Below are positions 4,150-14,808 of a stretch of 45,732 bases of DNA, one piece after another. A program made the position numbers and the translations under genes. The stretch is from positions 1-45,732 of the forward strand of contig JAFSTC010000036.1 in NCBI GenBank assembly GCA_017450705.1, given 5' to 3'. Origin of the DNA: Lentisphaeria bacterium (lineage in GTDB: Bacteria > Verrucomicrobiota > Lentisphaeria > Victivallales > Victivallaceae). Position 1 is the first letter of the stretch. Every line of letters starts with the position of its first letter. Below the pieces are notes generated by a model. The model ran no database searches. It worked only from the letters and a program-made list of their open reading frames with translations, and had not been told where the DNA came from.

Positions 4150-6456
4150 ATGGGTTGGATCGACTGGCTGATCGTCATCATCCCCACGGGACTTGTGATC
4201 TCGCTGGGAATGTACTCGAGAAAATATGTGCACGGCGTGGCGGACTTCCTCTCCGCGGGGCGGTGCGCGGGACGCTACGTGCTCAGCATGGGCGACGTGG
4301 CCAGCGCCCTGGCCGTGACGGGACTGATCGCCTACGTCGAAGTCCACTACAAAACGGGATTCGCCATCGCCTTCTGGAACAGTCTCATCATGCCGCTGAC
4401 CATCGCCATGGGCCTTTACGGCTACTGCACCTACCGCTTCCGGGAGACCCGGGCCATGAGTCTGGGGCAGTTCCTCGAGATGCGTTACAGCCGGTCCTTC
4501 CGCATCTTCGCCTCCGGACTGCGCTCCATCTCGGAAATGCTGGCCAACATGATCATGCCGGCCATCGCCGCACGCTTCTTCATCTACTTTCTGGATCTGC
4601 CGCGGACCTTCACGGTCTTCGGGGTCACGGTGCCGACGTTCATGCTGGTGATCGTCATCTGCCTCGTTCTTGCGATCTCGCTCATCTGCTGCGGGGGCAC
4701 GCTCTCCATGCTGATCGCCGACTCGATCCAGGGGATGGTGCTGTTCCCGCTGATGGTGGTCTTCGTGGTGTTCATCCTCTGGAAGTTCAGCTGGACGCAG
4801 GAGATCATCCCCGTGATGAGCGACCGGGTGCCCGGGGAGAGCTTTCTCAACAGTTTCGACGTCAAGAACCTGCGGGACTTCAATCTGCTCATGGTGTTCA
4901 TGACGCTGATGACGTCGATCCTGCACCGGGCCAGCTGGATCGGCGCGGGGTACTCCACCGCGGCGAAGTCGCCCCACGAACAGAAGATGGCGGGCGTGCT
5001 GGGCACTTGGCGGGGGGCGTTGAACACCCTCTTCTACGTGCTGATCGCGCTGGGCATCATCACCGTGCTGAACCATCAGAAATTCTCCGCCCGGGCCCGG
5101 GAGATCAAGATCGATCTCAGCCGCCACATCGCCGAGGAACTGGTCTCCCCCGTCCACCGGCAGGACTTCATGACCCGGATCAAGGCCGTTCCGGAACTCA
5201 AGCACCAGATCGGCAAAGACGCCCCGCTCTCCCACAAGAAAGATCTGGACACGCCTTACATGGAGGTCGCGCACAAGGCCTTCAAAGAATACGAGGGCGA
5301 GGCGCAGGGGAACTCCAAATTCCAGCAGTACCGCACGCTCTATTACCAGCTGATGATGGCCGCCGGGATGCACCGCATTTTGCCGCCCGTCATCATGGGG
5401 ATGTTCTGTCTGCTGATGGTCCTTGCGATGATCTCCACCGACGACACCCGGATCTTCAGCGCCAGTCTCACCGTCGCACAGGACGTGATCCTGCCGTTCT
5501 GCAAAAAAGCGCCGACGCCCGCCCAGCACATCCGGCTGCTGCGGATCGTCTCCATCGGGATCGGCGTCTTCTACTGCTGCGGCAGTCTTTTCATGGCCCA
5601 GCTGGACTACATCAACCTCTTTGTCACGATCATGACCATGATGTGGATGGGCGGCTGCGGCCCCGTGATGATCTTCGGATTGTACAGCCGCTTCGGCAAC
5701 ACCAAAGGCGCTTGGGCGTCGCTCCTCACGGGCATGGTGCTGGCGCTGGGCGGCATCGCCGTGCAGCGCAACTGGGCGGACATCGTCTACCCATTCCTGG
5801 CCTCCCGCGGCTGGACGGAACCCATCGGCAAGTGGCTGGAGATCGTCTCCGCGCCCTTCAACCCCTACGTGGTCTGGAAGATGGATCCCGTGAAGTTCCC
5901 GATCAACTCCTATGAGATCTACCTCGTCACCATGTTCATCACGCTGGCGATCTACTGCGGTGTTTCGCTGGCGACGCAGAAGGAGCCCTTCAATCTGGAC
6001 AGGATGCTCCACCGCGGCATCTACAGCGACAGCGGCGAAGAAAAGAAGCCCGTCCGCATGACGCTGAAGACGGTCCTCGGCAAAATGGTGGGGATCAACG
6101 GGGAATACACCCGGGGCGACAGGGTGATCGCCTGGGGCGTATTCTGGTACAGCTTCGTCTACCGTTTCATCCTCAGCTTCGCGGCGGTGGCGCTGTGGAA
6201 CCTCGTGTCGCCGTGGCCGCTCAAGTGGTGGGGATTCTACTTCTTCGTCACCACGCTGCTGGTCCCCGGCATCGTGGCTTTCGTCACCACCTTCTGGTTC
6301 GGCATCGGCGGCGCCATCGATCTGGTGAGACTGTTCCGCGATCTGGAACACCGCGAAGCCGACATCCTCGACAACGGTCAGGTCGAAGGCAACGTCTCGC
6401 TGGCCGACCGCGCCCGTTTCGCCAAACTCGAAGCGAAAGAGAAGGACAAGGAGTGA
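4150..6456 (+). CDS. Sodium:solute symporter family transporter, large form
   Basis: Inner-membrane transporter of the SSS family that couples solute uptake to sodium. The 768-aa product starts MGWIDWLIVIIPTGLVISLG (TM1) and has a dozen or more hydrophobic segments. It is longer than typical SSS proteins (500-600 aa) for two reasons. A hydrophilic insert of about 90 residues (roughly 310-400) interrupts the helices, and a C-terminal extension adds amphipathic sequence, two or more membrane spans and a charged tail containing DNGQVEG. The start at 4150 has gaaaggGAAG upstream; the in-frame ATG at 4000 sits inside the -10 region. It is convergent with the nagA operon, which suggests it imports that operon's substrate. 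The substrate cannot be read from sequence. Confidence 0.88.
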   Translation: MGWIDWLIVIIPTGLVISLGMYSRKYVHGVADFLSAGRCAGRYVLSMGDVASALAVTGLIAYVEVHYKTGFAIAFWNSLIMPLTIAMGLYGYCTYRFRETRAMSLGQFLEMRYSRSFRIFASGLRSISEMLANMIMPAIAARFFIYFLDLPRTFTVFGVTVPTFMLVIVICLVLAISLICCGGTLSMLIADSIQGMVLFPLMVVFVVFILWKFSWTQEIIPVMSDRVPGESFLNSFDVKNLRDFNLLMVFMTLMTSILHRASWIGAGYSTAAKSPHEQKMAGVLGTWRGALNTLFYVLIALGIITVLNHQKFSARAREIKIDLSRHIAEELVSPVHRQDFMTRIKAVPELKHQIGKDAPLSHKKDLDTPYMEVAHKAFKEYEGEAQGNSKFQQYRTLYYQLMMAAGMHRILPPVIMGMFCLLMVLAMISTDDTRIFSASLTVAQDVILPFCKKAPTPAQHIRLLRIVSIGIGVFYCCGSLFMAQLDYINLFVTIMTMMWMGGCGPVMIFGLYSRFGNTKGAWASLLTGMVLALGGIAVQRNWADIVYPFLASRGWTEPIGKWLEIVSAPFNPYVVWKMDPVKFPINSYEIYLVTMFITLAIYCGVSLATQKEPFNLDRMLHRGIYSDSGEEKKPVRMTLKTVLGKMVGINGEYTRGDRVIAWGVFWYSFVYRFILSFAAVALWNLVSPWPLKWWGFYFFVTTLLVPGIVAFVTTFWFGIGGAIDLVRLFRDLEHREADILDNGQVEGNVSLADRARFAKLEAKEKDKE

Positions 6457-6489
6457 CCTTCCTTTCCGGGGGAGCCCCCTCCCGGCAAG

Positions 6490-7224
6490 TTACCGGAAGA
6501 GGATCTTTTCCATGTCGTATGATGAGGCTTCCAGGGCGCCGTCGCCCCATTCGGGAGAAGCGTCCTTCGCCGGACGGCTGAACCAGATGGTTTCGTCCAG
6601 ACGGTCCATCTCCACCAGTTCCGGGCAGATGACCATGGCTTCGCTGGTCTCCAGTTTCCCGGCGTGATCCCCGCCGTACTTCTTTCTCGTCTCGGGCCCG
6701 CGGATCGGGTGGATACCGATCCAGTTGAAGGGATTGTTGCCGCCGGAGTAATAGGCGCTGAATTTTTCCGTTCCCCACCAGCCCTCGCCGGACTCCTTTT
6801 CCAGATACTCGAAGATCACGTGCCGCGCGGCGAAGCGGAAGGCGAGATCCGTCGGCATGCCCTGATAGAACTCCTCCGTCTGGTGAGAGACGAAGGCGTG
6901 GATGTTGCGGAACCCCACCCGCAGCAGCCCCCGGAAGATCTCCTCGGCCACGGGGATGATCTTTTCGGAATCCACCTGGACCGTGCCGTTGCGTTCGGGC
7001 TTGGCCACGGCCAGAGAGGCCGCGCCGTAGTAAAAGGGCGGCAGAACGACCAGTTCCGGACGGCGCTTTTCGACCCGGCTGATCGCGTCGATGCACGTGA
7101 AGCAGTCCACGCCCAGCGGGAGGTGCTCGGCATGGTACTCGATGACCCCCAGCGGCAGGGCCACGGGATAGTTTTTGTCGATCGCTTCCCTCACCTGATA
7201 GGGCAGCATGTTCAAGTATTGCAT
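6490..7224 (-). CDS. Creatininase-family (creatinine amidohydrolase-like) metallohydrolase
   Basis: The 244-aa product carries the family metal-binding signature LPLGVIEYHAEHLPLGVD near residues 23-40 (Glu, His and Asp ligands) and a later SHQTEEF region. Creatininase-family enzymes are Zn/Mn amidohydrolases acting on cyclic amides, N-formyl groups or amidated intermediates; few have real creatinine activity. It is the last gene of the operon with nagA and the six-hairpin-like protein, starting 8 nt after the latter's stop. Here it could remove an amide or acyl group from a sugar derivative; that is inference. Confidence 0.85.
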   Translation of the reverse strand: MQYLNMLPYQVREAIDKNYPVALPLGVIEYHAEHLPLGVDCFTCIDAISRVEKRRPELVVLPPFYYGAASLAVAKPERNGTVQVDSEKIIPVAEEIFRGLLRVGFRNIHAFVSHQTEEFYQGMPTDLAFRFAARHVIFEYLEKESGEGWWGTEKFSAYYSGGNNPFNWIGIHPIRGPETRKKYGGDHAGKLETSEAMVICPELVEMDRLDETIWFSRPAKDASPEWGDGALEASSYDMEKILFR

Positions 7225-7231
7225 TTTTCCC

Positions 7232-9460
7232 TCATCCTATTTCGATGGTTTTGGTTTCTTTCGCGGCAAAGGAGACGGTTTTCTCCTCCCGGCCGCCGAT
7301 GAAAAGGGTCGTGCGGTGGGGCCGGTCGAGCTCGTTCCGGACCGTGATCTCCCCCTTGTCCCAGTCCGCGCCCGTCACGGTCACGCAGTCCAGACCGAAG
7401 GCCTGTTTCCGGCCGGGATAAACGGCAATGCCGCCGAATTCCCGCAGAATGTCTCCGAGATACAGATACAGGTCGATAAACAGCGAATAACTGTTTTCCG
7501 GATAACTGTGCTTGTAGAGCCCCGACTCGTCGTCCATCTGCGGGTTGTTCTCGTAGATGCTGTACAAAATCTGATCTTTGTGGGGATTGCCCTCGAGGCT
7601 CTTTTCGTCCCGGTGGAGCATGACCTGACGGAAGGTCGCGATGCCGCGCTCCATGTAGACGGCCTTGCCCGTCGCCCGGTAGAGGCGCATCAGAAGATAC
7701 GCGATCCACGCCACGGACTGGTTGCCCGTCGCAGTGCACTGGGTGCGGGAGTAGTCCGGCCAGGTGTAGTAGCTGGTGGAGATCATGCCCCGGGACTTCC
7801 AGCCGATCTTATCGTAAAAACTCCCCGGCACGTTGGGGATGTTGTAGCCCATCTGCATGACGCTGCCGAACCGCTGGACCTTTTCCGCGGCATCCAGCCA
7901 CTTTTTGTCATGCTCCGCGTCGTAGAGGTCGAGAAACGCCCAGAGCATCGTGCGGTAGCCGTCCACGTCCCAGAAGTCCGGATAATCGGTCTCGCAGCCG
8001 CCCATGGCGAAGAGCCCCTGCTCCTCGATGTCCAGCAGACAGCGTTCCGCGGTCTTGAGATAGGCGGTGCGCAGCCGTTCATCTTTGGTGGCCTGATACA
8101 TCTTGATGAGTGCGGGGATCCAGGTCTGGGTTTCGGAATACTGGCTGACCCAGCCGGCTTTTTCCTTCGGCGTGAGGTCGGCGTTGTAGAGCCGCCGGAA
8201 GTGGCCGTCCGGCTGCTGGAGTTTCAGCACGTCATCCGCGATCGTAAAGGGATATTTCGTTTGGAACAGGGTTTCATCTTGCAGATACAGCGTCATGGCG
8301 TCGTAGATCATCTCCGGCAGGGCCAGGGAGTCCAGCGCCTCGGCCTCGAAGGGGGCGCCCCAGCCGGTCTTTTCGCAGAACGGCATGATGTCCTTCATGA
8401 AGTCGCCGGTGTGGAACGGATAGGTCAGTTTTGAATTGCCTACGTAATGATTGTACAGATAGTAATTCAGCAGTTTGACGGTATGCTCGCGGTATTCCGC
8501 CTTGCCGGTTTCCTTCCAGCGGCGGTAAAATTCATTGGCTTTGAGCAGGTCGTATTCCAGCCATGAACAGCCGAACTGGTCCGGGGGACGGTAGCCGTCT
8601 TTGAACTGCCCGAAGAACTCCGAAAAGTAGTGGGCCGCATAATGATCGCCCTGTTCCACCCCTTTGAGCTCGGAACGCGGCCAGATGGAGACGAATTTTT
8701 CGACGAAGTCCGCCATGTCGGTCTGGGGTGTGTGCACGGGCGACTTGTCGAGACGCCACATCACGTCCGAGAGCACCCCCGCATGGTCCTCCCCTCCCCG
8801 GCCGAAAAACCAGAAAAAGCACAGATCCAGCGGGCCCTCCACGGGCGTCCGCAGCCGGAAGACATGGGCCAGTTCCGTGTCCTCCCGCTCGGTTTCGGAA
8901 ACGCGGTCGATATCCGTCTCCCGGTAGGCCTCGCCGAAATAAAGATGCCCGGAACAGGTGAAGAAGATCCGGTTGTTGGCGGCGGAAGCGAGGTAGTCGC
9001 TCCAGTCTTTGTCGAAGGGATACGCCCCCTGATTCATCTTGCGGGAGATCCACTTCAACGAGACGTAAGTGAAGTCGGCCACGGGCCCCTCGTTGAAGTA
9101 ACTTGTGCGGTAAAGGGCGTTCCCGGCGCAGTTATAGTGGATGTCGCGGATGAAGTAAAGCTCCTTTTCCTCCGGGTCCTCGCCGACCGTGATCCGCTCC
9201 GTTCCCCAGGTGGTCTCGACGGTGATGCCGTCATGATCGAAGGCGGCGCGCTTCACCTCCCCCAGGTCGGATTCGGCTTTTTTGCGCCACAGGCCGCGCT
9301 CGAAAAAGTAGGCGCGAAGGAGATTTCCGCAGACGACGACGGCTTTGTCTCCGCGAATGAGCTCCGCCTGACGCTCCGGCAGTTCCGGCAGTTTGTAGTA
9401 ACGCGCCCGGTTGGTGTAGTCGACGATCTTCTGCTGACGCTCGAGAATTTTCTCATACAT
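7232..9460 (-). CDS. Large uncharacterised protein, probable six-hairpin-type glycan-active enzyme
   Basis: A 742-aa protein with no signal peptide, so cytoplasmic. Residues about 1-230 look beta-rich. Residues about 250-660 are rich in helices spaced as in (alpha/alpha) toroid glycosidases, with segments such as KEKAGWVSQYSETQTWIPAL, YDAEHDKKWLDAAEKV and GNQSVAWIAYLLMRLYRATG. The last 90 residues are again beta-like, resembling an Ig or Greek-key end domain. This layout resembles the six-hairpin glycosidase superfamily, but I do not recognise a named family or a certain catalytic pair. It overlaps nagA by 8 bp, so the two are co-translated; a glycoside hydrolase, lyase or epimerase role on an imported amino-sugar glycan is plausible. 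Confidence 0.72.
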   Translation of the reverse strand: MYEKILERQQKIVDYTNRARYYKLPELPERQAELIRGDKAVVVCGNLLRAYFFERGLWRKKAESDLGEVKRAAFDHDGITVETTWGTERITVGEDPEEKELYFIRDIHYNCAGNALYRTSYFNEGPVADFTYVSLKWISRKMNQGAYPFDKDWSDYLASAANNRIFFTCSGHLYFGEAYRETDIDRVSETEREDTELAHVFRLRTPVEGPLDLCFFWFFGRGGEDHAGVLSDVMWRLDKSPVHTPQTDMADFVEKFVSIWPRSELKGVEQGDHYAAHYFSEFFGQFKDGYRPPDQFGCSWLEYDLLKANEFYRRWKETGKAEYREHTVKLLNYYLYNHYVGNSKLTYPFHTGDFMKDIMPFCEKTGWGAPFEAEALDSLALPEMIYDAMTLYLQDETLFQTKYPFTIADDVLKLQQPDGHFRRLYNADLTPKEKAGWVSQYSETQTWIPALIKMYQATKDERLRTAYLKTAERCLLDIEEQGLFAMGGCETDYPDFWDVDGYRTMLWAFLDLYDAEHDKKWLDAAEKVQRFGSVMQMGYNIPNVPGSFYDKIGWKSRGMISTSYYTWPDYSRTQCTATGNQSVAWIAYLLMRLYRATGKAVYMERGIATFRQVMLHRDEKSLEGNPHKDQILYSIYENNPQMDDESGLYKHSYPENSYSLFIDLYLYLGDILREFGGIAVYPGRKQAFGLDCVTVTGADWDKGEITVRNELDRPHRTTLFIGGREEKTVSFAAKETKTIEIG

Positions 9461-10385
9461 GGTCGTGAATGACTCCCGAAAATTTGCGCGGCAGACCGGA
9501 ACAGGCGTAGAGCGCCTCCTCGTCGGTCAGACCGCAGAATTTGATGAGATTCGCATAAACTCTGTTCATGGTGGCGAGACTGCCGGTGAGTTTGTCGGTT
9601 CCTGCGATGTACAGCGCCCCGTTGCGGACGTCGAACTCCGCCGGGGTCCCGACGGGATCGGGAAAGACGAGGCGCTTTCCCGGCAGTCCCGTGGCGGCGC
9701 ACCCGTCGGTGACGGCGATGAAGCGCTCCCGGCCCTTGACCCGCCGGACGGTCTTCACCAGCTCGGGGGGCACATGGACGCCGTCGCAGATCATTTCGAC
9801 GGTCAGGCGGTCGTCGGAAAGGATCTCGAGGAAGGGGCCGTCGGTGTGATAAACGCCGTCGGTATTGCAAAGGGGCCCCTCGCCGTTGTTGCAAAAATGC
9901 GTCACCCCGGTGATCCCGCAGGCCACGGCCTCCCGGAGCTTCGCGGGCGAGCAGAAAAAGTGCCCGGCGGAGACGCGGATCCCCTCGGAGGCAAAGTATT
10001 CGATGACGGGCAGCGCGCCCTCCAGTTCCGGGGCAACGGCGACGTTTCTCAGGATGCCGCGCCCCGCCCGGACCAGACGCCTGGCCGCCTCGACGGAGGG
10101 TTTCGCAAGCAGCGACGCCGTCATGCCGCCCGCCACATGGAGGAAAGGCCCCTCCAGATAGACGCCCGCAAGACGGGCTCCCGGCAGGGGAGCGCTCTCC
10201 ATGAGTTCCCGGCAGAACTCCAGACACCGCACCAATTCGTCCACCGGCGCGGCTGAGAAGCCCGCCAGAAACGCGTCGGTCTCACCCTTCTCCGCAAGAA
10301 AAAGGGACATCTCCTCGTAGGCCTTCCGGTCCAGCTCGATGGTCTTGTGCCCCGCACATCCGTGAAAATGATATTCGAAAAACAT
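9453..10385 (-). CDS. nagA: N-acetylglucosamine-6-phosphate deacetylase-like protein
   Basis: Amidohydrolase-fold enzyme that removes acetate from GlcNAc-6-phosphate in amino-sugar catabolism. Visible family motifs are GVYLEGPFL (metal-binding Glu), the SAGHFF and THFCNN histidines, MICDGVHVPPE and the VTDGCAATG aspartate. The 310-aa product is shorter than usual (about 380). The N-terminal small beta domain is nearly absent and the protein begins directly near FHGCAGH, which stands where the family normally has HxHG. The start at 10385 has a TAAGGACG ribosome binding site; the upstream in-frame ATG at 10418 overlaps the predicted promoter. First gene of its operon. Specificity for GlcNAc-6-P is not proven. 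Confidence 0.86.
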   Translation of the reverse strand: MFFEYHFHGCAGHKTIELDRKAYEEMSLFLAEKGETDAFLAGFSAAPVDELVRCLEFCRELMESAPLPGARLAGVYLEGPFLHVAGGMTASLLAKPSVEAARRLVRAGRGILRNVAVAPELEGALPVIEYFASEGIRVSAGHFFCSPAKLREAVACGITGVTHFCNNGEGPLCNTDGVYHTDGPFLEILSDDRLTVEMICDGVHVPPELVKTVRRVKGRERFIAVTDGCAATGLPGKRLVFPDPVGTPAEFDVRNGALYIAGTDKLTGSLATMNRVYANLIKFCGLTDEEALYACSGLPRKFSGVIHDHV

Positions 10386-10418
10386 CTTTGCCGTCCTTAC
10401 GCGCGTCCCGCGCTCCAT

Positions 10419-10998: not shown

Positions 10999-13900
10999 AT
11001 GAAAAAAGCGATACGGAGAAGACTTGCGGTCCTGCTGTGCGTGTTTGCGGCGTTTTCCGTTTTTGCGGCGGGGGAGCTTCCGACGGCGGAACTTGTTCAG
11101 GCGGAGAAGGATGCGACGCAGAAGAGGTTTCCTGATTCGGACACGGTGCTGCTGTACGACCGGGAGGACATCAGATACGAGGCGAACGGGCTGTCGGTCT
11201 CGACGGACGAATACTATCACAAGGTGCTCACGGAGTCGGGGCGGCGGCAGCTGCGCAGTTTCACGTTCCACTTCAACGCGTCTTACGGCGCGGTGACGGT
11301 GGAAAAGGCGATGATCCTGAGGAACGGCAAGGTGATTTCGCTGGATCCCGCGGCGCACACGAAGGTCTCCATCGAGCCGGGGCAGATGGGGAGCAACATT
11401 TACGACCCGGCGAACAAAATTCTGACGCTGACGTTTCCCGAGGTGAAGATCGGCGACGTGGTCGGGATCAAGACCCGGACGACGGTCAAAAAGGCGCGGA
11501 TCCCGGGGTTCTGGGGAGATTACATCGCGCTGCAGGGAAATATGCCGATATTGAAATACATCGTCACGATCGACGGTCCGAAGTCGAATCCCCTGCGGTC
11601 GAAGGTGGTGAAGGACCCGGCTGGCAGCGGGGTGAAGTTCAGCGAAAAGGCGGCGGGCGACAGGATCCTTTACCGCTGGGAGGCGGAGAACGTGCCGCAG
11701 GCGATCCCGGAGCCGGACATGCCGCCGCTTTACACGGCGGTGCAGCGGCTTCTGGTGGGTACGGCGAAGAACTGGGAGGAGATCTCCAAGTGGTACGATG
11801 CTCTGTGCCGTCCCCGGCTGAACGCGGCGGACGAGGCCATCAAAAAGCAGGTGAAGGAGCTGACGGCGGGAAAAAAGAGCGATGAGGAGAAGATCCGGGC
11901 GCTGTTCAAGTTCGTGTCGCAGAAGATCCGTTACATGGGGATCACGCCGGAGTCGGAGGCGCCGGGGTACGAGCCCCACGACGTGACGATGACGTTCCAC
12001 AGGCGGTACGGTGTCTGCCGGGACAAGGCGGCGCTGCTGACGGCGATGCTGAAGATCGCGGGCTTCAAGGCGTATCCCGTGCTGATCATGGCCGGAGCGC
12101 CCAAGGACGACGACGTGCCCAACGGGTATTTCAACCACGCGATCACGGCGGTGGCGGGCAAAGACGGCCAATACATACTGATGGATCCGACGGACGAGAA
12201 CGCGGGGGAGCTTCTCCCGGCGACGCTGGCCAACTGCAGCTATCTCGCGGCGCGTCCGGAGGGGGACAAGCTCCGGCGCACGCCGTCGCCGCCGCCGGAA
12301 CGCAACCGGCTGACGATCAAAAGCCGCTCGGAGCTGGACGGGAACGGCCGGCTGACGGGATCGATGGAGCTGGACTTCACGGGCGTCAACGATCAGATCT
12401 ACCGCAACGCGCTGTCGCGCTGGACTCCGGAGGAGGCGGACCAGTACTTTTCGCGGCGTCTGGCGCGGGCGATCCCGGGGGCGACGCTTGTGAAGCTGGA
12501 GATCCTTCCCGTGCCGGTCAGGGACACGTCGAAGCCTCTGCATGTCAGGCTGAGTTATGCGGCAGAGGGGGTCTTTTCCGACACCCGCAGTCCGGCGGCG
12601 CTCCAGCTGCCGGAGCTGGGGGACGCGGTGGGGGCGTCGGGATTTCTGCTGGGCTCCTTCGGACTGGAGAAGCGCAAATTCAAACTGCAGATCCCCTCGA
12701 CCTTTTCGGTGAAGGAGGATTTCACGCTGAAGATCCCGCGGCATCTGCGTCTGCTGGGGATGCCGAAGGCGGAGGAAGAGGGGGCGAAGGGGCTTCTGCG
12801 CTGGTCCCGCAGGATCGGGGAAAAAGACGGTCTCATCACGGGCAGCCGCCTGTTTTCGGTGGATTCTCTTGAATTCACGCCGCAGCAGTACGCTTCCGCC
12901 CGGGAAGTCCTGCGCAAGATGGACATGAAAAAGCGGGCCCTGCCGGTGGTCGTCGAGGATTACGGACGGATCGCCGAAAACGAAATGGCGGCGGTCTTCT
13001 CCGGAGCGGACACGGTCATTCTGAAGGACACGAAAAAGTATACGCTGAAGAGTCTTGTGGCGTGGACGGAGGAACAGGAGCTGGAGATCAAGGTGCTGAC
13101 CTATTCCGGCGTCAAGAAGTCGGGGGATTTCCGGATGGAATTCAATCCGGTCAACGAGCAGCCCGAGATCACGGGCGAGGTGGTTTCACCCTCCGGGCAA
13201 GTCCGCAAGCTGGGGAAGGTGGAGATCAATCTCATGGATGCCGGCTGGAACTCCTCCGCGCCGCGCTATCCGGGAGCGAAGGTCCTCGCGGCCAGTTTCC
13301 CCGGCGTGGAGACGGGCTCGAAGATCCGCATGCGGATCAAGCGGACTCTGACGCGGCCGTATTTTTCGGCGCTCCTGACTTTTTCGGGCGCGTCGCCCGC
13401 GGTGAGCCGGATCCGGATCATCGATCTGCCTTCCCGGATGCTCTTGCGCTGGTCCCCGCTGCCCGACGGCATCGAGTTCCGGGAAAAACTGGAAGGCACC
13501 CGGCGGATCCTGTCGTGGAAGGCCTCCAGCACCCGGCGGATCCAGGCGGAGACGAATCAGCCGCCGCGATGGTACTTCACGCCGGCGGTCATGGTCTCTT
13601 CGGGACGGCTGTCGGACTACGCCACCCGGTTGAACGCCATGTTCATGCGTCTGAGCTCGCCGGAGGGGAATCCCCGCGCGGCGGCGCTGGCCCGGGATCT
13701 GGTGAAGAACGTTCCCGCGGACGGAACGAAAGAGGAGCAGCTGACCCGCCGTGTCAGGGTGCTGAGAGACTATGCCGCCCGGTACATCCGCGCCGCGGGG
13801 CCCGGGTTCGAATCGCTGCCGCTGGAGAAGCTTTCTCCGGCGGACGTGACGCTGAAATCCGGCTACGGCCACTCGGCCGACCGGGCCATCCTGCTGGCGG

Positions 13901-14808
13901 CCCTGCTCCGGGCGACGGGGATCGAGGTGGAGTTTTTCGCGGTCTCGAACATGCTCTACACCATGTTCGCGGCGCGGCATTTCGAGCGTTATCCGCAGCC
14001 GATCTTCAGCGGCGCTCTGCTCTACGTCCCGGCGCTGGATCTCTTTCTCAACGACACGTCGCATTACGCCGAGCTGGGCGCGGTCAATTCGGCGGACAGG
14101 ATCGTTCTCTCGCTGAAAAACCGCCGTCTGGAGTCGCTCCGCGAGACGGGGAAACACGAGAGCCGCTCCCGGCATCTGGTCCGGATCATGATCGCCGATG
14201 ACGGCTCGGCGGAGCTGACCGTCACGGGGTTTTACCGCGGGTCCGAATTCGAGTCCGCCAAACGGCTCTACGCGGAGCTGACTCCGGAACTGAGGAAACG
14301 GCACTTTTCGGAACTGGCCGCGGATCTCTCCCGGGCGGCCCGGATCAAAGGGACGCCGGAAACGGATTTCAGCGTTTATCCCGGCATGGTGAAGTACACG
14401 CTGACGTGTCCGGGCTTCGCCGTGCGGACCGGGAAATTCCTCGAATTCGACCTGCCGTACTTTTCGACCTTCACCGAATCGACCGGTTCGGTGAAGAAGG
14501 TGCGCGAGACGCCGTTCCTGCGGAACCGCTCGGTCAACACGGCCATCCGGTACGAGATCGCCTTCCCGGACAAATACACGGTCAACGAGAACCGCTCCGC
14601 GCAGCTGGAACTGGGCGATTACAACATCGGGCTCTTTTCCCGGAACTATACCGTCTCCCGGGGGAAACTGGAGATCGACTGCCGGCTGAAGATCCCCTCG
14701 GGCATCGTCCCCGCGGACGACTGCGACAAGCTGTTCCAGCTCCGCCGCCGGCTCTCGCGGCCCACGGCCCGCAAGATCATACTCATCCCCAACGGAGAAA
14801 TAAAATGA
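10999..14808 (+). CDS. DUF3857/transglutaminase-like exported protein with a second, degenerate transglutaminase half
   Basis: A 1269-aa protein with a signal peptide (MKKAIRRRLAVLLCVFAAFSVFAAG), so exported. Residues about 40-250 match a DUF3857-type beta domain. Residues about 270-420 are a transglutaminase-like fold with an apparent triad: Cys340 (YGVCRDKAALL), His380 (FNHAI) and Asp396 (LMDPTDENAG). The second half (about 650-1269) repeats the plan, with the equivalent positions Ser959 (GHSADRAILL), Gly1005 and Asp1019 (LNDTSH), so that site should be inactive. The ribosome binding site is AAGGGAAAG. Its stop overlaps the MBL gene start (ATGA). Function is unknown; a periplasmic peptide or isopeptide-processing role is possible. 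Confidence 0.88.
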   Translation: MKKAIRRRLAVLLCVFAAFSVFAAGELPTAELVQAEKDATQKRFPDSDTVLLYDREDIRYEANGLSVSTDEYYHKVLTESGRRQLRSFTFHFNASYGAVTVEKAMILRNGKVISLDPAAHTKVSIEPGQMGSNIYDPANKILTLTFPEVKIGDVVGIKTRTTVKKARIPGFWGDYIALQGNMPILKYIVTIDGPKSNPLRSKVVKDPAGSGVKFSEKAAGDRILYRWEAENVPQAIPEPDMPPLYTAVQRLLVGTAKNWEEISKWYDALCRPRLNAADEAIKKQVKELTAGKKSDEEKIRALFKFVSQKIRYMGITPESEAPGYEPHDVTMTFHRRYGVCRDKAALLTAMLKIAGFKAYPVLIMAGAPKDDDVPNGYFNHAITAVAGKDGQYILMDPTDENAGELLPATLANCSYLAARPEGDKLRRTPSPPPERNRLTIKSRSELDGNGRLTGSMELDFTGVNDQIYRNALSRWTPEEADQYFSRRLARAIPGATLVKLEILPVPVRDTSKPLHVRLSYAAEGVFSDTRSPAALQLPELGDAVGASGFLLGSFGLEKRKFKLQIPSTFSVKEDFTLKIPRHLRLLGMPKAEEEGAKGLLRWSRRIGEKDGLITGSRLFSVDSLEFTPQQYASAREVLRKMDMKKRALPVVVEDYGRIAENEMAAVFSGADTVILKDTKKYTLKSLVAWTEEQELEIKVLTYSGVKKSGDFRMEFNPVNEQPEITGEVVSPSGQVRKLGKVEINLMDAGWNSSAPRYPGAKVLAASFPGVETGSKIRMRIKRTLTRPYFSALLTFSGASPAVSRIRIIDLPSRMLLRWSPLPDGIEFREKLEGTRRILSWKASSTRRIQAETNQPPRWYFTPAVMVSSGRLSDYATRLNAMFMRLSSPEGNPRAAALARDLVKNVPADGTKEEQLTRRVRVLRDYAARYIRAAGPGFESLPLEKLSPADVTLKSGYGHSADRAILLAALLRATGIEVEFFAVSNMLYTMFAARHFERYPQPIFSGALLYVPALDLFLNDTSHYAELGAVNSADRIVLSLKNRRLESLRETGKHESRSRHLVRIMIADDGSAELTVTGFYRGSEFESAKRLYAELTPELRKRHFSELAADLSRAARIKGTPETDFSVYPGMVKYTLTCPGFAVRTGKFLEFDLPYFSTFTESTGSVKKVRETPFLRNRSVNTAIRYEIAFPDKYTVNENRSAQLELGDYNIGLFSRNYTVSRGKLEIDCRLKIPSGIVPADDCDKLFQLRRRLSRPTARKIILIPNGEIK

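Follow-up and report, generated by a model that had tools for sequence, protein, structure and literature searches.

Three neighboring minus-strand genes, encoding a short NagA-like amidohydrolase (short NagA), a 742-aa protein (P742), and a divergent member of the creatininase family (CRN), form a real conserved module that is co-linear and co-inherited in relatives. Each of the three is a member or a side branch of a known superfamily. We give about even chances to the view that, in some Lentisphaeria, they make up an intracellular, phosphorylation-independent module that breaks down an N-acetylated sugar conjugate. The genes lie in a stretch of 45,732 nucleotides from a Lentisphaeria bacterium (contig JAFSTC010000036.1 of assembly GCA_017450705.1; hereafter, the window), beside the gene of an SSS-type transporter (SSS).

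4150-6456, plus strand: SSS, 768 aa, large SSS-type transporter, convergent neighbor, probably outside the conserved set
6490-7224, minus strand: CRN, 244 aa, divergent creatininase-family metallohydrolase
7232-9460, minus strand: P742, 742 aa, probably cytosolic protein with no family over cut-off
9453-10385, minus strand: short NagA-like amidohydrolase, 310 aa, consisting of the catalytic barrel alone

Open frames and hexamer gene calls placed all four genes at these positions. The mechanical open reading frame of short NagA begins at 10418, and its relatives begin at an ATG matching 10385. An earlier sequence-only reading had described the minus-strand genes as facing the transporter and as overlapping or lying 8 nt apart; SSS and CRN do converge, over 33 nt, and the short NagA and P742 genes do overlap (by 8 nt), but the gap between P742 and CRN measured 7 nt. 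On the other side of the module, a divergent gene (10999-14808) for a 1269-aa protein, perhaps transglutaminase-like, lies beyond a stretch of about 600 bp in which no gene was called.

We looked for the trio in 197 genomes of the class. P742 was present in 14 of them, in 13 close loci (58 to 100% identity, window included) and 3 distant ones (43 to 46%). Short NagA, P742, and CRN occurred together in 10/13 close loci, and the three clusters where CRN was not seen (L036, L039, and L045) are each cut on one side by a contig end. The short NagA gene adjoined P742 in 11 close loci, with about 1.1 kb between the two in one case (L044, genome G176), and was fused to it in another, where a single natural open frame encodes 1090 aa (genome G096, L046:8732-12004). 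In genome G162, the 13th close locus runs into a contig end and its P742 is interrupted by a stop (L039:5185-7308; a pseudogene or an assembly error); the same genome has a second, distant P742. Short NagA itself was found in 12/197 genomes (54 to 100% identity), every one of which also carries P742, a co-occurrence with a hypergeometric probability of 1.8e-17 when relatedness is ignored. Its clade is sharply bounded, the next best protein in the class being full length and 38% identical. Since gene order is kept in relatives, chance is untenable as an explanation for the three minus-strand genes, though not for the transporter. Of the four-gene set in the sequence-only reading, the trio is conserved and SSS is a bystander, which adjoins the trio in the window alone (1/13 close loci).

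Other genes accompany the trio in part of the loci: an SDR-type oxidoreductase in 6/13 and a GDSL hydrolase in 2/13 close loci. The SDR family (L042:8823-9755 and relatives) is present in 93/197 genomes, often far from the trio locus, and carries an invariant Trp near what is presumably the position of the usual catalytic Tyr. The NagA gene was absent from the 3 distant P742 loci, two of which have an M28 peptidase instead, so deacetylation would not be universal.

One contig scan for P742 returned Lentisphaeria only; the named contigs found in this way all belong to metagenome-assembled genomes, several of which come from gut samples of sheep, goats, and horses. Among 387 genomes drawn evenly from the phylum, a single genome outside the class (G262) gave a match, which was weak and partial. 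This distant relative has a signal-like N terminus and sits in an arabinoxylan-type locus, surrounded by GH10, GH43, and arabinofuranosidase-like genes, a setting that fits a carbohydrate role for P742. The combination of short NagA, P742, and CRN was not found in print within the open-licence literature searched.

We then compared short NagA with NagA, the GlcNAc-6-P deacetylase. It matches NagA structures (E ∼1e-31), and the NCBIfam nagA profile (380 positions) aligns with it from position 58 to position 347, scoring 136 bits where the cut-off is 226. The amidohydrolase barrel aligns with that of NagA, as do the metal and catalytic residues: the HxH motif, Glu78, His142, His163, His204, and the catalytic Asp227 are invariant in 11/11 short NagA proteins. 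The sequence-only reading saw a NagA without its N-terminal domain, which is right but incomplete, as all 11 short homologues aligned lack the small domain's C-terminal segment too. The small beta domain is thus wholly absent, neither terminus carrying a flank the size of a domain in 11/11 separate short homologues, whereas full-length NagA relatives have an N-terminal flank of 43 to 61 residues and a longer C terminus in 18/18 cases. In Mycobacterium smegmatis NagA, Arg-219 of the neighboring subunit and the Ala-213 backbone together hold the phosphate of the substrate, and no function is known for the small domain (PMC6016474). The window protein has no phosphate-binding Arg in the segment after its THxxN motif, and this Arg is not conserved among the 11 short homologues, 6 of which have an Arg at one nearby column; the NAM motif is replaced by NNG and GAH by GGM. 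The segment without Arg and the change from NAM to NNG lead us to infer that short NagA probably deacetylates an unphosphorylated sugar. GGM and CHxFD motifs likewise set its nearest full-length paralogues apart from NagA, so short NagA is apparently a side branch of the family, and it further differs from NagA in its linkage to P742 and CRN. The GlcNAc1A route of oxidative chitin degradation also deacetylates an amino sugar derivative with no phosphorylation, by means of OngB, which unlike short NagA is D-aminoacylase-like; the available text of that report mentions no counterpart of P742 or CRN (PMC12017989).

P742 had been described as a protein of no clear family, and indeed no profile matched it over its cut-off. 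The best was GH127 (PF07944; E = 0.0072, 15.8 bits versus a cut-off of 24.9), and the AGE profile (PF07221) gave no match to the window protein at E values up to 10. In profile comparisons, the probability was 6% for AGE proteins from the same family of organisms and 1% for GH127, a weak negative as the alignments held some wrong-frame open reading frames. Assignment of P742 to GH127 or AGE by sequence was rejected for lack of profile-level support, and searching solved structures by sequence yielded nothing useful for P742, the G262 relative, or the C10 family introduced below. An AlphaFold2 model built from 14 sequences (mean pLDDT 77.7, pTM 0.85) is composed of a beta-sandwich (residues ∼30 to 222), an (alpha/alpha)6 barrel (∼226 to 675), and a C-terminal beta part (678 to 742), in agreement with the earlier six-hairpin-like label. 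The predicted barrel matched sugar-active and other six-hairpin proteins with Z scores of 19 to 24 at 8 to 14% identity (Foldseek, VIA-align 2); a Brucella DsbH-like protein ranked first (Z = 23.9), and AprG, known in complexes with GlcNAc and GalNAc, was also among the matches (Z = 19). Segments with pLDDT values below 50 include residues 273 to 299, 350 to 370, 565 to 573, and 634 to 660, parts of which are highly conserved, and the active site is therefore poorly modeled. P742 is probably cytosolic and the module intracellular, export signals having been judged absent by eye from the N termini only.

P742 may also be an epimerase and not a glycosidase. It would then act as an AGE-type isomerase or epimerase on a free sugar or a reducing end, and the NagA-like enzyme would deacetylate the product. 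AGE-family chains are among the best matches of the barrel (Z = 19 to 22), and PF07221 weakly touches 2 of the 14 P742 members (best E = 0.0063). However, GH76 and GH88 match the barrel about as well, and all three groups are at 8 to 12% identity (Z ∼19 to 22) and lack the N-terminal beta-sandwich of P742; the AGE chains among the matches have about 390 to 420 aa and their alignments begin near residue 243, leaving that domain extra. Given also the low probability in the profile comparison with AGE proteins, we regard the epimerase scheme as unlikely.

CRN belongs to the creatininase family but is not a creatininase. It matched PF02633 (98.1 bits versus a cut-off of 31.3) and scored 66 bits against the 235 bits required by the creatininase equivalog TIGR04448, remaining under all NCBIfam equivalog cut-offs. 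As in other members of the family (creatininase, MftE, and IolN), the metal-site equivalents are retained: E29, H31, D40, and H114, which align with E34, H36, D45, and H120 of creatininase, are invariant in 52/52 copies. Unlike these proteins, CRN has a VSHQTEE-type motif in place of NGHYEN, and E122 of the latter aligns to T116 in the window protein.

CRN is the hub of the system. Its relatives were found in 50/197 genomes. The stretches examined contain 53 copies, and 26 of these have C10, a family of ∼700 aa present in 89/197 genomes of the class, no more than two genes away. Among the 52 copies that exceed 225 aa, P742 is at most two genes away in 7 cases, and 12 copies lack any labeled partner. 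The window genome itself has two CRN-C10 pairs (C10 at L034:7544-9640, for example), and its closest CRN is 74% identical. The one C10 copy scanned gave no Pfam match over cut-off; its AlphaFold2 model (pLDDT 87.7) has the fold of GH138, GH67, and GH115 uronidases along its whole length (matches over ∼500 to 550 residues, Z = 16 to 18) and also matched GH20C (Z = 15). Besides C10 and P742, CRN is partnered by a DUF4910-AAC(3) fusion, an M24 peptidase, a GH78-type rhamnosidase, and a GH20C-type enzyme. The fusion proteins (L177:5106-7811 and similar ones in L178, L179, L182, and L188; domains scanned in L177 only) have 901 to 926 aa and join DUF4910 to an AAC(3)-type aminoglycoside N-acetyltransferase-like domain; their genes adjoin CRN and usually C10 too.

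GntR-type regulators are found at both P742 and C10 loci, mostly 46 to 52% identical to each other, with fewer at 36 to 42%. Upstream regions of the GntR-bearing loci of both types contain a motif, AAAAGTGTATnAGTCAAG, which scored 142, versus at most 128 in 8 mononucleotide shuffles. Outside the training set, four regions (L042, L177, L178, and L182) scored 14 to 24 and most others failed. Because a TTGACT-like promoter hexamer overlaps it on the opposite strand, AAAAGTGTATnAGTCAAG may be a mere promoter element and not a shared operator. The window has no adjacent GntR gene and no AAAAGTGTATnAGTCAAG upstream of its NagA.

We propose the following route. An N-acetylated sugar conjugate would enter the cell by a transporter, probably one other than SSS. 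Short NagA would strip the N-acetyl group from a sugar that bears no 6-phosphate, and P742 would cut or rearrange the glycosidic part in its six-hairpin barrel, two steps whose succession is suggested by the NagA-P742 fusion. CRN, a metal hydrolase, would then open an amide, lactam, or lactone in a product common to this module and to sister modules where the uronidase-like C10 replaces P742; in some relatives, the SDR-type oxidoreductase and the GDSL hydrolase would join in. The earlier proposal that the genes jointly process an imported acylated amino sugar, with glycosaminoglycan fragments among the substrates to try, survives in part: the conserved trio (a unit in 10/13 close loci) and the natural fusion make it reasonable that the genes act together on an acylated sugar, while neither the transporter nor the glycosaminoglycan part was sustained (see below).

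More tentatively, the trio may be one version of a modular phosphorylation-independent system, in which a constant CRN core is combined with an exchangeable glycosidase slot and an exchangeable amide-hydrolase slot, each set for a different N-acylated or uronic-acid-bearing glycan, under related GntR-type regulators. We would just as tentatively assign P742, C10, or a GH78-like rhamnosidase to the glycosidase slot and short NagA, M28, or DUF4910-AAC(3) to the amide-hydrolase slot. If this is true, P742 founds a new glycosidase family and CRN represents a new activity in the creatininase family.

The replacement of NagA by an M28 peptidase in two of the three distant P742 loci also suggests a substrate of another kind, a sugar with an amino-acid or acyl amide, on which the variable amide hydrolase would fit the acyl group (acetyl for NagA, aminoacyl for M28). 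The DUF4910-AAC(3) fusions, the M24 peptidase, and a protein that we assume to be ceramidase-like, all beside CRN or C10, point the same way. We nevertheless find this doubtful, for it is a neighborhood analogy only, M28 and M24 are large, generic families, and Pfam gave no match for the ceramidase-like protein.

Glycosaminoglycan fragments had been put forward as a substrate to try, and on this reading the module would end glycosaminoglycan breakdown, with P742 as a GH88-like unsaturated glucuronyl hydrolase acting on lyase-made disaccharides. GH88 enzymes have two catalytic Asp residues in their barrel. The P742 barrel matches GH88 chains with Z scores of 19 to 20, the neighbors in genome G100 looked promising (a PL8-type lyase and a chondroitinase-B-like beta-helix protein within ∼6 kb of the locus), and a weak GH123-like match adjoins the locus in genome G097. 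Yet neither family is enriched: PL8 was found in 4/14 P742 genomes versus 19/66 comparators and GH88 in 3/14 versus 16/66 (p = 1.0 for both), the comparators being hand-picked from related genera and families and not random. The window genome has no PL8 match, and the distant G262 relative lies among GH10, GH43, and arabinofuranosidase-like genes. We therefore rejected the glycosaminoglycan role, which we consider improbable.

The least probable reading is that of a four-gene uptake-and-degradation locus in which SSS, a convergent neighbor of the trio, imports the substrate, since the other 12 close loci have no SSS relative, such relatives occur in 114/197 genomes, often five or more per genome, and the only two other genomes with an 85 to 86% identical SSS have it on other contigs among unrelated genes. 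The assignment to the SSF family (PF00474; 30.6 bits versus a cut-off of 22.8) is sound, and both of those genomes carry P742, with a chance probability of 0.004 for an identity threshold that was picked after the list had been seen. As a fourth member, SSS was rejected for its non-conservation in relatives, and it probably stands outside the conserved set.

The preferred reading of the trio, a phosphorylation-independent breakdown of an N-acetylated sugar conjugate, would, if true, bring three additions: a family of six-hairpin sugar enzymes that work inside the cell, a deacetylase with the chemistry of NagA but neither its small domain nor its phosphate handle, and a role linked to sugars for an enzyme of the creatininase family. 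The hosts are gut bacteria known mainly from metagenomes, and thanks to the conserved trio and its natural fusion, three proteins would be enough to test the pathway directly.
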